Shown here: in pieces, positions 1 to 4,056 of the stretch
Numbering within the stretch: the stretch's first letter is position 1
Layout: every line of letters begins with the position of its first letter
Origin: Candidatus Gastranaerophilales bacterium
Lineage (GTDB): Bacteria; Cyanobacteriota; Vampirovibrionia; Gastranaerophilales; Gastranaerophilaceae
Assembly: GCA_017415185.1 (NCBI GenBank)
Contig: JAFQHZ010000027.1
Span: 1 to 41,096 of the forward strand
DNA length: 41,096 bases
Direction: 5' to 3'
Position numbers and translations under genes: made by a program
Notes under the pieces: model-generated
Databases searched by the model: none
What the model was told of the DNA's origin: nothing
Seen by the model: only the letters and a program-made list of their open reading frames with translations

Positions 1-160
1 AGTTCTTTGTATGGATATAGATGGTGTTCCTGACAATGCAACAAAAGATGACTGCGTGAATGAATGTCCTTTTGGGTTTGGTATTCGTGCCGACGGGAAA
101 ATTTTTAATGGCGCAAAGGCTGACGAGTGGCTTGAAAAATCTATTTCGCAAAAAGATTAA
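1..160 (+). CDS. C-terminal end of a probable pilin-like / type II secretion pseudopilin protein (partial)
   Basis: The gene enters from outside the window; codons run in frame from base 2 to a TAA at 158-160, giving about 52 residues. The visible tail contains C-M-D-I-D-G-V-P, a Cys pair (DDCVNEC), then FGFGIRADGKIF and a lysine-rich end. An Asp-rich D-x-D-G-x-P segment, cysteines, and a closing F-G-x-x-I-x-x-D-G-K-I are typical of C-terminal domains of pilin-like proteins in low-GC diderms. The N-terminal prepilin helix that would prove this is not in the window. It converges with flhB, and the two stop codons overlap. The family assignment is inference. Confidence 0.4.
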   Translation, partial: VLCMDIDGVPDNATKDDCVNECPFGFGIRADGKIFNGAKADEWLEKSISQKD

Positions 161-1332
161 TTTTCTTCTTCCTTAAATTTTTTAAGTTGTTCTTCTTTTT
201 TCTTTTGAATTTCGGCGGTTGCTTGCGTGTCGCCTTTGTCCAATGCAGCTTTTTGAATTTTGCTTTGTTCTTTTTGAGTTGTTTTCTTGAGTTTATAAAC
301 AAAGATTAGAATTTCTGCGATTGCTTTATATAAATCAGGCGGAATTTGGCGATTAATTTCAACAAATCTGAATAATGCTCTTGCAACAGGCGGATTTTCA
401 ATAACAGGGATATTGTGCTCACGAGCAATTTGTTTAATTTTTTGAGCAAATAATTCTGTTCCTTTTGCAACAAGCATTGGCGATTCCATTGTTTGTGCAT
501 CATATTTAATTGCGCAGGCAACATGGGTTGGGTTTGTGACAACAAAATCGCAAGTTGTAACCGAATCCATCATTTTTTGTTGCAATAATTGCATACGCCT
601 TTGACGAAGAGCAGCCTTAACGTTTGGATCGCCTTCGGAGTTTTTATATTCGTCTTTTACTTCTTTAAAAGACATTTTTTGGTCTTGCAAAAATTTCCAC
701 TTTGTCACTCCATAATCCGCTGCGGCGATTATCAAAAAGGCAATCCCTGCTTTGATTACGAAATCCAAAATCAATGAACCAAATTGAATTAAAATTGCAA
801 AATCGTTATCGATTGCTGCAAGCATTAAAATATCTTCAAAATGCGAACTGTAAACAATATAACCAATTATTCCTAAAACAATAACTTTTGCAATATTTTT
901 GAACAAATCGAATAATGTTTTTGGACTTGCGAGGTTTTTAAAATATTTTGTTGGGTTGAATTTTTCTGCATTAAATTCCATTGGTTTTGTTGTAAAAAGA
1001 GGACCAATTTGAATCATATCTCCTAAAACACCAACGCACGAAGCCAAAATTAAAATAGGAAGGGTTATTATTCCTGCTGGAAGAAAAGTTTTGACAAATA
1101 AATATGGATATCCTATTTCTTCAAGATGTTTATTTGGAATTTGCTCATATATTTGAACAAACAATGCACTTAATTGCCCCCAAATAATTGGACCTAGAAG
1201 ATAAATCACGCTAAACATAATAATGATTGCAATAGCAGTTGATAAATCTTTTGATTTAACAACTTGTCCTTGTTCACGCGCTTTTCTTAGTTTCTGCTGA
1301 CTCGCTTCAAACTGTTTATTTTCGTCGCCCAT
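157..1332 (-). CDS. flhB: Flagellar type III export switch protein FlhB
   Basis: A 391-residue FlhB/YscU family protein, the inner-membrane export-gate component that switches flagellar export from hook to filament substrates. Residues 1-30 form the usual charged cytosolic start (SQQKLRKAREQGQV). Four hydrophobic segments lie near 32-60, 85-107, 145-165 and 180-205. The self-cleaving loop N-P-T-H is intact at residues 267-270, followed by the conserved cytosolic domain with PxVAKG-like and ENPPVARALF-like segments. The C-terminus ends in a Lys/Glu-rich tail of about 45 residues, longer than in enteric FlhB. It starts 3 nt after the stop of the upstream 783-aa gene, so the two are probably cotranscribed. 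No other export-apparatus gene is here, but flagellin lies about 33 kb away. Confidence 0.95.
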   Translation of the reverse strand: MGDENKQFEASQQKLRKAREQGQVVKSKDLSTAIAIIIMFSVIYLLGPIIWGQLSALFVQIYEQIPNKHLEEIGYPYLFVKTFLPAGIITLPILILASCVGVLGDMIQIGPLFTTKPMEFNAEKFNPTKYFKNLASPKTLFDLFKNIAKVIVLGIIGYIVYSSHFEDILMLAAIDNDFAILIQFGSLILDFVIKAGIAFLIIAAADYGVTKWKFLQDQKMSFKEVKDEYKNSEGDPNVKAALRQRRMQLLQQKMMDSVTTCDFVVTNPTHVACAIKYDAQTMESPMLVAKGTELFAQKIKQIAREHNIPVIENPPVARALFRFVEINRQIPPDLYKAIAEILIFVYKLKKTTQKEQSKIQKAALDKGDTQATAEIQKKKEEQLKKFKEEEN

Positions 1333-1335
1333 TTA

Positions 1336-3687
1336 TTACTGTTCTAGTTTAATATCTGCTACTTTGGGGTCTAATAGCTTTTTGCCTGCTTCTTCAAATT
1401 CAATTTGAAGAAGTTGTCTTTCTTCATATTTAATTGTTTTTACAACAGTTCCTTTGCCATATTTTTTATGAACAATAATGTTTCCAATGTTAAATACAAC
1501 ATTGTTGTCTTTTGGTTCTTCTTCTTTAAAAATTGGAAGATTTTCTTTTTGTGTGTTCGTTTCTAAAATATCGGCATTAATTTTTGTGTCTTTATCGACT
1601 GCGATAGTTGGCGCAGCTTGTTGATTTTTAGTATTAATGATTTCTTCGAAATTGTCATCAATTGAATCATCGGCAATTGCACTTAAATCGATGTCATCTT
1701 CTTCAGATTCTTCTTGCAAATCTTCTTCGTCTTCGCTATCTTGCGCCATTTGGAAGAAATCAAGCTCTTCGTCAGACAAATCATCGTCTAAAACAGGAAT
1801 GTCGTCATCAAGCTCTTGCGTTAAGTCTTCTTTTTTTGTTTCTTCTTCTGTTGCGGGAGCTTGTGTTGCTTCTTCGACAATTATTTCTTCAACAGCAACT
1901 TCTTTTGTTTCTTCTTCGATAATTTCTTCTGCTTTTTCTTCGATGTTTATAACAGGAGCTTGTGTGATTATTTCTTCAATTTTTTCTTCTTGAATTAAAG
2001 TTTCTTCTTCGATTTTAATTTCTTCTTGAGAAGTTTCAAGTTCTTCTTCTTGAATAGCTGGCTCTTCTTGTTCTTTTTGTTCTTCTTTTAATATATCTTC
2101 AAAAACATCTTCGTCTTCTTCTTGAATTTCTTTTGCAGGAGCTAAATCTTGAAAATCGTCTTGTGTTTCTTTTTTGATTTCAACTTCTTTTTCAGGATTG
2201 AAGATTAAATCGTCTTCAATGTTTTCTTTTGTAGAAAGTTCATTTGCAGATGTTGGGTCAACAATTTCTTCAAATGTTTCTTCTTCTTTTTCTTGAATGT
2301 TTTCTTTTTGGCTTGCTTCAAAATCAGAAAGCTCTTTAATTAATCTTGCAGAATCGCTCATTTCTTCTTGGGCTTTGTTTTCAAAATAATCGCCTTTTTC
2401 GCCAAGATTGTTTTGTTGAGCTTCTTGTTGGACTAATGTCAGGGCGATTTTTCTGTAATTTTTTCTTTTTTCTTGAATTTCTAATTCGTAATCTTTTACA
2501 AGATATAAAAATCCATCTGTATTTTCGCCAAATACAATGCAACCTTCTGAAATTAAATTAGACAGCGCAAAATTTGCATCCAAGAAATCTGCTCTTTGAG
2601 TAAGACTTGGCATAAGGATGTAATTTTTGCAATGTTGCATAACTGAAGGCAGTTTTTTGTAATTATATGAAACATTTGGCACAAAATTAATGTTTTTCTT
2701 TTTGTTGTAGATTTTGTTAATTAATTCTGCGCTGAATTGTTCGTCATTAATTCTTGTTATTAAATAAATTTCTTGTTCAATTTCTGAAACAATATAATTT
2801 AAATATGTTTTTTGCCAATATGATTCAAGACCTGATAAATCAATTATTGTAATTGGATTTTTTTCAATGGCTTTAAATAATGCTTCTTTTTCTGCTTTTG
2901 TGCGTGCAAAAACTTCATCCATTTGGTGTTTTTTCAATCTAACCAAAAGAAGTTTTAATTCAGGATATGGTGTTGCTTTGTGTTGTTGAATTAAAACACG
3001 AGTCAAAAGATTGAAAGGAATGAAATTGTCTTCTTGTTTGCGTGCAAATTTTTTAATTTCGTTTATGATTTCGCCGCCGATAGCTTGAAATTCTAAAGTT
3101 GCATCATATAAACATCTATTAAAAACATGGTCAATTGTTGAATAATTCAAAGGCATTTTGAAATTTTTAGAAGCTTTAATTTTCTTTGCGCCTTCAAGTT
3201 CTAAAACGCCAGTTGTATCAATAATTACAACGTTTTTCTTTTGTGAAAGTTTTTTTGCAAGATTGTATGTAATACATGTTGCATTTTCGATTTTGTCGGC
3301 TAAAACAACAGGATTATTGTTGAAAAAATCATATTGAATATTAAGACCGCATGAGTTTTTAATATTTGTTCCAAGGACAAATGTTTCTTTGTCTTGGTTG
3401 ACAAAAGATTCTATTTCTTCAGGTTTGATTTTTGAAATTTCGCATTCTTTGTTTGGCGTGAAGTTATCATAAGGCATAACTTCGTTGTTTTCAGTTATCC
3501 TGTAAAACAATTTTAATTTTGCAACATTTTGCGAAGCGTCAAACTTGTCGTCATAAATTTCAACAATTTGTGCAATATAACGACTATCGTCTGATTTTAC
3601 AACTAAAAAATCAAACAAATTAAAATTTTCAACTCTGGGGTTAAATAATATTCTGATACTATTATTTAAGGTATTAGCTACTTGCAT
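1336..3687 (-). CDS. Degenerate HerA-like ATPase with acidic linker and C-terminal PcrA/UvrD-type Tudor domain
   Basis: A 783-residue protein in three parts. Residues about 10-90 look like a HAS-barrel, the N-terminal beta-barrel of HerA-type ATPases. Residues 120-400 follow the HerA layout: a strand VVIIDTTG at 153-160 and a Walker B-like ITIIDLSG at 279-286. Where the P-loop should be (about 126-142) there is DKIENATC, without G-x-x-G-x-G-K-S/T. Residues about 440-700 are extremely Glu/Asp-rich low complexity. Residues 733-783 (IVHKKYGKGTVV...) match the Tudor-like C-terminus of PcrA/UvrD, known to contact RNA polymerase. The gene has its own promoter, an AGAAGG Shine-Dalgarno sequence, and flhB 3 nt downstream. 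Its function is unknown. I infer a non-hydrolytic scaffold, possibly linked to transcription or DNA. Confidence 0.6.
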   Translation of the reverse strand: MQVANTLNNSIRILFNPRVENFNLFDFLVVKSDDSRYIAQIVEIYDDKFDASQNVAKLKLFYRITENNEVMPYDNFTPNKECEISKIKPEEIESFVNQDKETFVLGTNIKNSCGLNIQYDFFNNNPVVLADKIENATCITYNLAKKLSQKKNVVIIDTTGVLELEGAKKIKASKNFKMPLNYSTIDHVFNRCLYDATLEFQAIGGEIINEIKKFARKQEDNFIPFNLLTRVLIQQHKATPYPELKLLLVRLKKHQMDEVFARTKAEKEALFKAIEKNPITIIDLSGLESYWQKTYLNYIVSEIEQEIYLITRINDEQFSAELINKIYNKKKNINFVPNVSYNYKKLPSVMQHCKNYILMPSLTQRADFLDANFALSNLISEGCIVFGENTDGFLYLVKDYELEIQEKRKNYRKIALTLVQQEAQQNNLGEKGDYFENKAQEEMSDSARLIKELSDFEASQKENIQEKEEETFEEIVDPTSANELSTKENIEDDLIFNPEKEVEIKKETQDDFQDLAPAKEIQEEDEDVFEDILKEEQKEQEEPAIQEEELETSQEEIKIEEETLIQEEKIEEIITQAPVINIEEKAEEIIEEETKEVAVEEIIVEEATQAPATEEETKKEDLTQELDDDIPVLDDDLSDEELDFFQMAQDSEDEEDLQEESEEDDIDLSAIADDSIDDNFEEIINTKNQQAAPTIAVDKDTKINADILETNTQKENLPIFKEEEPKDNNVVFNIGNIIVHKKYGKGTVVKTIKYEERQLLQIEFEEAGKKLLDPKVADIKLEQ

Positions 3688-3714
3688 TATAAACCTTCTA
3701 TCAATTCCTAATTC

Positions 3715-3743
3715 ATTATATCAACAAATTACTCATAATCCAA
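3715..3743 (-). promoter_or_regulatory. Sigma70-type promoter of the HerA-like gene and flhB
   Basis: On the minus strand TTGGAT (3743-3738) and TATAAT (3720-3715) are separated by exactly 17 nt. Transcription would start near 3708, giving a leader of about 20 nt that carries AGAAGG ahead of the ATG at 3687. Confidence 0.65.
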
Positions 3744-3846
3744 TATTAAGGTTGATATTATAATGTTTTTATATTACAACAAAAAATTTATTTTTTGCAA
3801 TGTTATTGTGTAGTTATGCAACATTTTTGTTTTTTTAAAATAATGC

Positions 3847-3875
3847 TTGACAGTTTTTTATGTCCTTAATAATAT
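3847..3875 (+). promoter_or_regulatory. Sigma70 promoter of the tRNA-tuf transcription unit
   Basis: A consensus TTGACA (3847-3852) is followed after 17 nt by TAATAT (3870-3875). The predicted start near 3882 lies 9 nt before tRNA-Thr(TGT). This is the best -35/-10 pair in the window, as expected for a stable-RNA and elongation-factor operon. Confidence 0.8.
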
Positions 3876-3890
3876 GTAGGTATAGAAATT

Positions 3891-3962
3891 GCCGATGTAG
3901 CTCAATGGTAGAGCAACGGTTTTGTAAACCGTAGGTTGCGGGTTCGAGTCCCATCATCGGCT
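3891..3962 (+). tRNA. tRNA-Thr (anticodon TGT)
   Basis: A 72-nt cloverleaf: acceptor GCCGATG pairs with CATCGGC, followed by discriminator T at 3962. The anticodon stem ACGGT/ACCGT encloses loop TTTGTAA, with anticodon TGT at 3923-3925. The T-loop is GGTTCGAGTCC-like. No CCA is encoded, consistent with the cca gene found elsewhere in the window. Confidence 0.95.
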
Positions 3963-3984
3963 TTTTTTAGTAAATATAGTGCAT

Positions 3985-4056
3985 GCCCTTGTGGCGCAGG
4001 GGTAGCGCACACCCTTGGTAAGGGTGAGGCCGTGAGTTCAAATCTCATCAAGGGCA
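3985..4056 (+). tRNA. tRNA-Thr (anticodon GGT)
   Basis: A 72-nt cloverleaf: acceptor GCCCTTG pairs with CAAGGGC, with discriminator A at 4056. The D stem is GCGC/GCGC. The anticodon stem CACCC/GGGTG encloses loop TTGGTAA, with anticodon GGT at 4017-4019. The T stem is GTGAG/CTCAT with loop TTCAAAT. It lies 22 nt after the first tRNA-Thr, in the same transcription unit. Confidence 0.95.

Follow-up and report, generated by a model that had tools for sequence, protein, structure and literature searches.

Gene and domain organization

The window, as the whole stretch of 41,096 nucleotides analysed here is called, belongs to a Candidatus Gastranaerophilales bacterium, a gut-dwelling, non-photosynthetic relative of the cyanobacteria. 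On the minus strand it carries a gene for a protein of 783 residues (in the following: pseudo-HerA/Tudor protein), which is divergent from two tRNA-Thr genes, one tRNA-Tyr gene and the gene for EF-Tu and is directly followed, after a gap of 3 nt, by flhB. The features of the locus are:

1336..3687, minus strand: pseudo-HerA/Tudor gene, open reading frame of 783 aa
2494..3687, minus strand: pseudo-HerA domain, residues 1-398 (AlphaFold2, Foldseek, VIA-align, HMM match)
3277..3300, minus strand: former Walker A position, residues 130-137 (ADKIENAT), from the alignment to 4d2i
3217..3219, minus strand: D157 in IIDTTG, counterpart of the Asp in IDxHGEY of HerA; D in 72/78 homologues
2746..2769, minus strand: presumable Walker B position, residues 307-314 (IYLITRIN), from strand order in the model, column counts and comparison by eye
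1495..2493, minus strand: acidic variable linker, residues 399-731 (35% D/E, net charge -86)
1528..1539, minus strand: motif [LVI]P[VI][YF], here LPIF, residues 717-720; P718 in 32/34 diverse members
1339..1494, minus strand: PcrA/UvrD-type Tudor domain, residues 732-783 (Pfam, PDB HMM, fold)
157..1332, minus strand: gene of the FlhB/YscU export gate family (PF01312, E=1.4e-111)

From the N to the C terminus, the protein is thus composed of a HerA fold devoid of its P-loop, an acidic linker and a Tudor domain of the PcrA/UvrD type. Both this architecture and the loss of the ATP site can be regarded as established as far as computation goes. The only domain that exceeds its Pfam cut-off in the full protein is PcrA_UvrD_tudor (PF21196); no SF1 helicase core domain is found among the Pfam matches, and a search of NCBIfam gave no match. 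A previous, sequence-only reading of the locus had proposed the same architecture together with a tether to RNA polymerase (RNAP) and a place among envelope or export genes. The architecture stands, as the fold is that of HerA, the homologues have no P-loop and the C terminus is closer to PcrA/UvrD than to CarD/Mfd, whereas the tether and the envelope/export placement fare less well (see below).

The N-terminal HerA fold and its lost ATP site

The AlphaFold2 model of residues 1-430, a monomer built with 78 homologues (pLDDT 87.2, pTM 0.84), consists of a HAS barrel (approximately residues 1-87) and a RecA-like core without P-loop. Each of the 50 matches listed by Foldseek for this domain is HerA or a HerA-like translocase, with E-values down to 9e-17. 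In VIA-align, HerA from Sulfolobus (4d2i) superposes with model residues 1-413 at a Z-score of 26.2 and an rmsd of 4.0 over 388 aligned residues, followed by VirB4 (Z 20.2) and TrwB (Z about 15). The HerA-like fold, including its HAS-barrel start, had been correctly anticipated from the sequence.

The relationship is also detectable in the sequences. A family HMM retrieves 4d2i from the PDB chains at E=1.3e-6 and, beyond it, no convincing chain; the two align without gaps from the strand preceding Walker A to the IDxxGEY-like motif (HerA, ILAATGSGKSNTV; family, ILADKEEEKNIIL). Six distant members score above the cut-off of the DUF87 profile (PF01935; best 40.8 bits), whereas the window protein reaches 15.6-15.9 bits compared to a cut-off of 23.2, with a match that begins past the P-loop (profile positions 51-220). 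The alignment to 4d2i and the DUF87 matches together indicate that the homology to HerA is real and that the P-loop was lost. When the family profile was compared with a profile of two intact HerAs from Gastranaerophilales, the alignment was correct, though weak (E 0.002, probability 14%), being limited by an intact profile of just two sequences.

At the position of Walker A, where HerA has [GA]xTGSGKS, the window protein reads ADKIENAT, i.e., the Gly, the Lys and the Ser/Thr are lost. The pattern G....GK[ST] is absent from the P-loop position in all 78 aligned homologues, in agreement with the missing Walker A of the sequence-only reading, and position 131 (D131 in the window protein) carries Asp in 69 of them and Glu in 8. 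In one deep-branching member (L168, Melainabacteria GWF2_37_15), the octet is GDAETSKN, which keeps the first Gly and the Lys of Walker A; it has the look of a half-decayed P-loop and is possibly an intermediate of decay.

A Walker B-like strand had previously been seen in residues 279-286 (ITIIDLSG). Judged by strand order and visual comparison with the intact HerAs L052 and L053, this segment corresponds instead to the HerA strand that precedes Walker B, e.g., NLVVLNLKDVN in L053, and the assignment was rejected. The Walker B place is probably occupied by residues 307-314, as judged from strand order in the model and by eye, and no acidic pair is conserved there among the 78 homologues. L052 and L053, which come from two genomes of the order and possess GNTGSGKS and IIIDEAH, are representatives of separate intact HerAs that occur in a few of its genomes; they are probably mobile or defence-related.

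The acidic linker

The linker of the window protein comprises 333 residues (399-731); the earlier estimate of a stretch of approximately 260 residues was right in its acidity and too low in its length. Among the 78 members, the linker varies from 126 to 674 residues, with 20-41% D/E, compared to 13% in the core, and a net charge of -24 to -164; it is acidic in every one of them. Charge is thus kept, while the sequence is variable except for the [LVI]P[VI][YF] motif, which is located at the end of the linker, immediately N-terminal of the Tudor domain.

The C-terminal Tudor domain

Residues 734-777 match PcrA_UvrD_tudor (PF21196) at E=9.8e-8 and 32.2 bits (cut-off 23.9), whereas CarD_TRCF_RID (PF02559) remains below its cut-off (15.5 bits vs. 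23; E=0.018). The top matches of an HMM of 34 Tudor ends to the PDB are only PcrA/UvrD ends (best 4.4e-6). The predicted structure, with pLDDT >90 across most of the domain and low values in the preceding 50 residues, places PcrA/UvrD throughout Foldseek ranks 1-7 and VIA ranks 1-5 (Z 9.0 for 7egs and 9dqs, 8.8 for 5dma and 8.2 for 7egt), with other Tudor domains and CarD beneath at Z-scores of about 7 (CarD 6.8). The assignment of this ending to PcrA/UvrD, already made from the sequence, is thereby corroborated both by profile and by nearest folds.

Mutation of H681, W684, K712 or L714 in PcrA severely lowers binding to RNAP (PMC5397179). In two of the matching structures, the UvrD end is seen with a partner: the RNAP lobe in 7egs and UvrB in 7egt. 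The counterparts of the four PcrA residues in the window Tudor domain are H740, Y743, K769 and L771, where the pairing of K712 with K769 presupposes a gap of one residue; among 34 members, H740 is kept in 33, Y743 (aromatic for aromatic) and L771 in all, and K769 as K or R in all. Tudor domains are able to bind DNA as well, as in the case of the UvrD C terminus (PMC7585439), which weighs against the docking scaffold proposed below.

Distribution and selection

The gene was found in 38 of 39 relatives, nearly always in one copy per genome. A class-wide profile search yielded matches in 143 genomes, each of them in Gastranaerophilales, and no match in the genomes of other orders listed; a single-sequence query of a phylum sample matched 128 of 292 genomes, all from the same order. 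Being near-universal in Gastranaerophilales, the gene is probably important there. In total, 80 named loci were retrieved; among the titles with an organism name, Candidatus Gastranaerophilales or Melainabacteria account for almost all. One locus (L144) is titled ‘uncultured Acinetobacter sp.’ and has the gene beside rpsT exactly as in Gastranaerophilales loci; the title looks like a mislabel.

Comparison with five relatives gave dN/dS values of 0.08-0.14 for the core, 0.07-0.19 for the Tudor domain and 0.28-0.45 for the linker, all of which are rough because synonymous sites are near saturation. These ratios point to purifying selection on the gene, which appears relaxed yet still purifying in the linker, and the core values imply that the gene is not decaying. 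The reading frame is open in every genome where the gene was found. Computationally, the protein is shown to be a HerA paralogue whose ATP site was lost prior to the diversification of Gastranaerophilales; strong selection has maintained it as a non-motor HerA body that is connected to the Tudor domain by a long, flexible acidic arm.

Possible docking partners and proposed function

PcrA docks to a motif, [VIL]DxxTGE[VIL][VILT] (HIM), that occurs in the SI1 insertion of RpoB and in UvrB; in B. subtilis and E. coli, the site of the PcrA Tudor domain on RpoB is SI1 and not beta1 (PMC8318588). UvrB of the window genome contains a canonical HIM, RIDAVTGEI. The motif is also present in ribosomal protein L17, MnmE and others (names assigned by sequence recognition). 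In RpoB of the window genome, a canonical HIM is absent from beta2/SI1 within the part read, which includes this region and ends short of the C-terminal quarter; neither a strict pattern search nor the inspection of 11 RpoB fragments revealed one. The sole resemblance to the HIM in the part read is LVNRDSGEI in beta1, and the corresponding peptide, LVNRD[ST]GEI, is present in beta1 in all 11 genomes examined.

The window genome also encodes a separate PcrA with a Tudor domain of its own, which is more divergent (15.3 bits, compared to 37.1 bits for pseudo-HerA). In each of the 23 same-genus genomes with the gene, the pseudo-HerA Tudor domain outscores that of PcrA, or PcrA is without match. 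The scores in the genus are 14-27 bits for PcrA (e.g., G000:C3:78919-79023) and, in most genomes, 31-42 bits for pseudo-HerA. As far as such scores can tell, it looks as if the docking role had moved from PcrA to pseudo-HerA.

The pseudo-HerA/Tudor protein is probably a docking scaffold rather than a motor. Our best guess, to which we assign a probability of slightly below one half (about 0.48), is that of an ATP-independent HerA scaffold docked by its Tudor domain on UvrB or RNAP. It could work in the following manner: The Tudor domain would grip the beta-hairpin of a HIM ([VIL]DxxTGE[VIL]), or a hairpin resembling it, on a partner engaged in DNA transactions, most likely UvrB or the beta subunit of RNAP. 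The acidic arm would allow the HerA body to reach around the partner while being itself kept off nucleic acid. The HerA body, which perhaps forms a ring via its HAS barrel, would then encircle or block instead of pumping. As a consequence, the protein may rival PcrA, whose Tudor domain scores lower in the genus, for one docking motif. A more far-reaching form of this idea, in which a hexameric DNA motor would have been converted throughout the order to a ring or scaffold that works without ATP and vies with PcrA for the docking hairpin shared by RNAP and UvrB, is a rather long shot; if true, a pseudo-motor would add a new layer of control to transcription-coupled repair.

Docking may also be restricted to RNAP: the Tudor domain would sit on the beta subunit, and the dead HerA body and the acidic arm would act on elongation complexes, e.g., by clearing nucleic acid in the way of the acidic delta subunit of RNAP. 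The conserved RNAP-binding residues, the rank of 7egs among the top fold matches and the HIM-like peptide in beta1 of all 11 RpoBs are consistent with such a tether; the RpoB region read, however, yielded no canonical HIM, and beta1 is not where PcrA docks in B. subtilis and E. coli. We consider an RNAP-only tether doubtful, at about one chance in four. The tether to RNAP as originally proposed retains its footing in the Tudor residues and loses it in the canonical HIM, which is present in UvrB, like RNAP a documented partner of this domain, and absent from the part of RpoB read. For the same reason, docking to RNAP is possible but not favoured over docking to UvrB.

The gene neighbourhood suggests yet another role, in which the HerA body would serve as a cytoplasmic scaffold of an FlhA/FlhB-type gate, belonging to an order-wide, flagellum-derived type III-like exporter, and the Tudor domain would read a hairpin of an export protein. 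flhB is next downstream in 19/19 nearest loci, with a gap of 4-20 nt, and in another lineage, 15 loci have fliS immediately after the pseudo-HerA gene. Moreover, FlhB (153/155 genomes of the order) and FlhA (22/22 tested) are universal like the pseudo-HerA gene. Shared universality, however, cannot tell cause from common ancestry, and most other lineages have unrelated genes downstream (rpsT, fba, dnaJ, a DnaQ-like exonuclease and others). The coupling to flhB noted before is thus real, but confined to close relatives; flhB is a genus-level neighbour in the transcription unit, and its functional part is only putative. Flagellin and FliS were detected in 12/24 and 11/24 genomes tested, respectively, and the gene is retained in genomes that lack both, e.g., G041, G061, G120, G126, G174, G244, G310 and G287, which argues against an export accessory. 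Most Gastranaerophilales studied by Soo et al. (2014) keep just a subset of flagellar genes (PMC4040986). Since the gene is kept without flagellin, it does not follow flagella, and a flagellar function, suggested by the adjacency of flhB and fliS, was rejected. The lone genome without both the gene and FlhB (G107) provides no functional link either: its sister genomes carry the two 11-70 kb apart on one contig, so that the joint loss is probably an assembly gap, i.e., a missing piece of the assembly. A role as export accessory is, on balance, improbable. The promoter that had been invoked for an envelope or export role is at chance level (three sigma-70-like sites in 3500-4000 compared to 3.0 expected in shuffles, with the lone minus-strand site inside the pseudo-HerA gene), and the placement itself is weak, as the neighbours vary by genus and the gene persists in the half of the tested genomes that lack flagellin. 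For the docking scaffold, too, the neighbourhood is unfavourable: it shows no DNA-repair context and includes flagellar or export genes in two lineages. No NurA, Sir2 or DUF4297 partners were seen among the clustered neighbours.

Several observations on the neighbouring genes can be added. The window genome has two FlhB-type genes: the copy at 157-1332 behind pseudo-HerA and one at a second site (G000:C17:42302-43339, L244), which belongs to a FliP-FliR-FlhB-FlhA cluster. In relatives without flagella, one FlhB and one FlhA remain, pointing to a type III-like exporter that is non-flagellar and common to the whole order. In one lineage, a conserved protein of approximately 84 aa without Pfam match is encoded 13-50 nt upstream of the pseudo-HerA gene and behind a CobA/CobO-type gene (L141:5732-5986 and 16 further loci). 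A helical-looking protein of 122 aa follows fliS (L162:8503-8871 and 14 further loci) in the position of a FliT-like chaperone, its only Pfam match being DUF6493, below cut-off.

Pseudoenzymes sometimes retain the ability to bind ligands. The N-terminal domain might accordingly still act as a switch or a slow enzyme, with non-canonical binding of a nucleotide or some other ligand, and the high conservation of D157 and of the overall RecA core would fit. The loss of the Walker A Gly, Lys and Ser/Thr, the conserved acid within the phosphate loop and the lack of an acidic pair at the Walker B place, as assigned by eye, make this very improbable. That the gene is merely degenerating and functionless, for which one could adduce its lost catalytic motifs, is refuted by the selection test, as the frame is open wherever the gene was found, order-wide, and the core dN/dS is 0.08-0.14.

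Relation to known systems

The literature searched yielded neither a stand-alone pseudo-HerA nor a PcrA-type Tudor domain on a non-helicase body, and no paper linking HerA with the PcrA Tudor domain or with Gastranaerophilales. The pseudo-HerA/Tudor protein resembles four known systems in part: (i) with HerA (Sulfolobus 4d2i; DUF87, PF01935) it shares the full HAS barrel and RecA core in the same order of elements and a sequence homology that is detectable through the Walker A region, but it lacks Walker A and, by eye, the acidic pair at the Walker B place, and adds an acidic linker and a Tudor domain; (ii) dead paralogues of HerA/FtsK motors are known within secretion ATPases, and the type VII secretion proteins EccC/EssC of the FtsK/HerA superfamily also have a RecA-like domain without catalytic motifs (PMC11154593), which, however, adjoins active domains in a tandem arrangement within a membrane protein, whereas the window protein is a stand-alone, full HerA with a Tudor domain; (iii) Mfd RID and CarD (PF02559) likewise contain a small Tudor-like barrel, with which they bind RNAP beta, and differ in their profile score (15.5 bits vs. 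a cut-off of 23) and fold (Z 6.8 for CarD vs. 9.0 for PcrA/UvrD); (iv) the C-terminal Tudor domain of PcrA/UvrD (PF21196; 5dma, 7egs, 7egt) corresponds in sequence, in fold and in the four RNAP-binding residues. In PcrA/UvrD, too, this domain sits on a flexible linker, which is long and strongly acidic in the window protein, and its carrier is an SF1 helicase instead of a dead HerA body. The pseudo-HerA/Tudor protein offers a direct test of the PcrA Tudor domain as a portable address tag for RNAP and UvrB.
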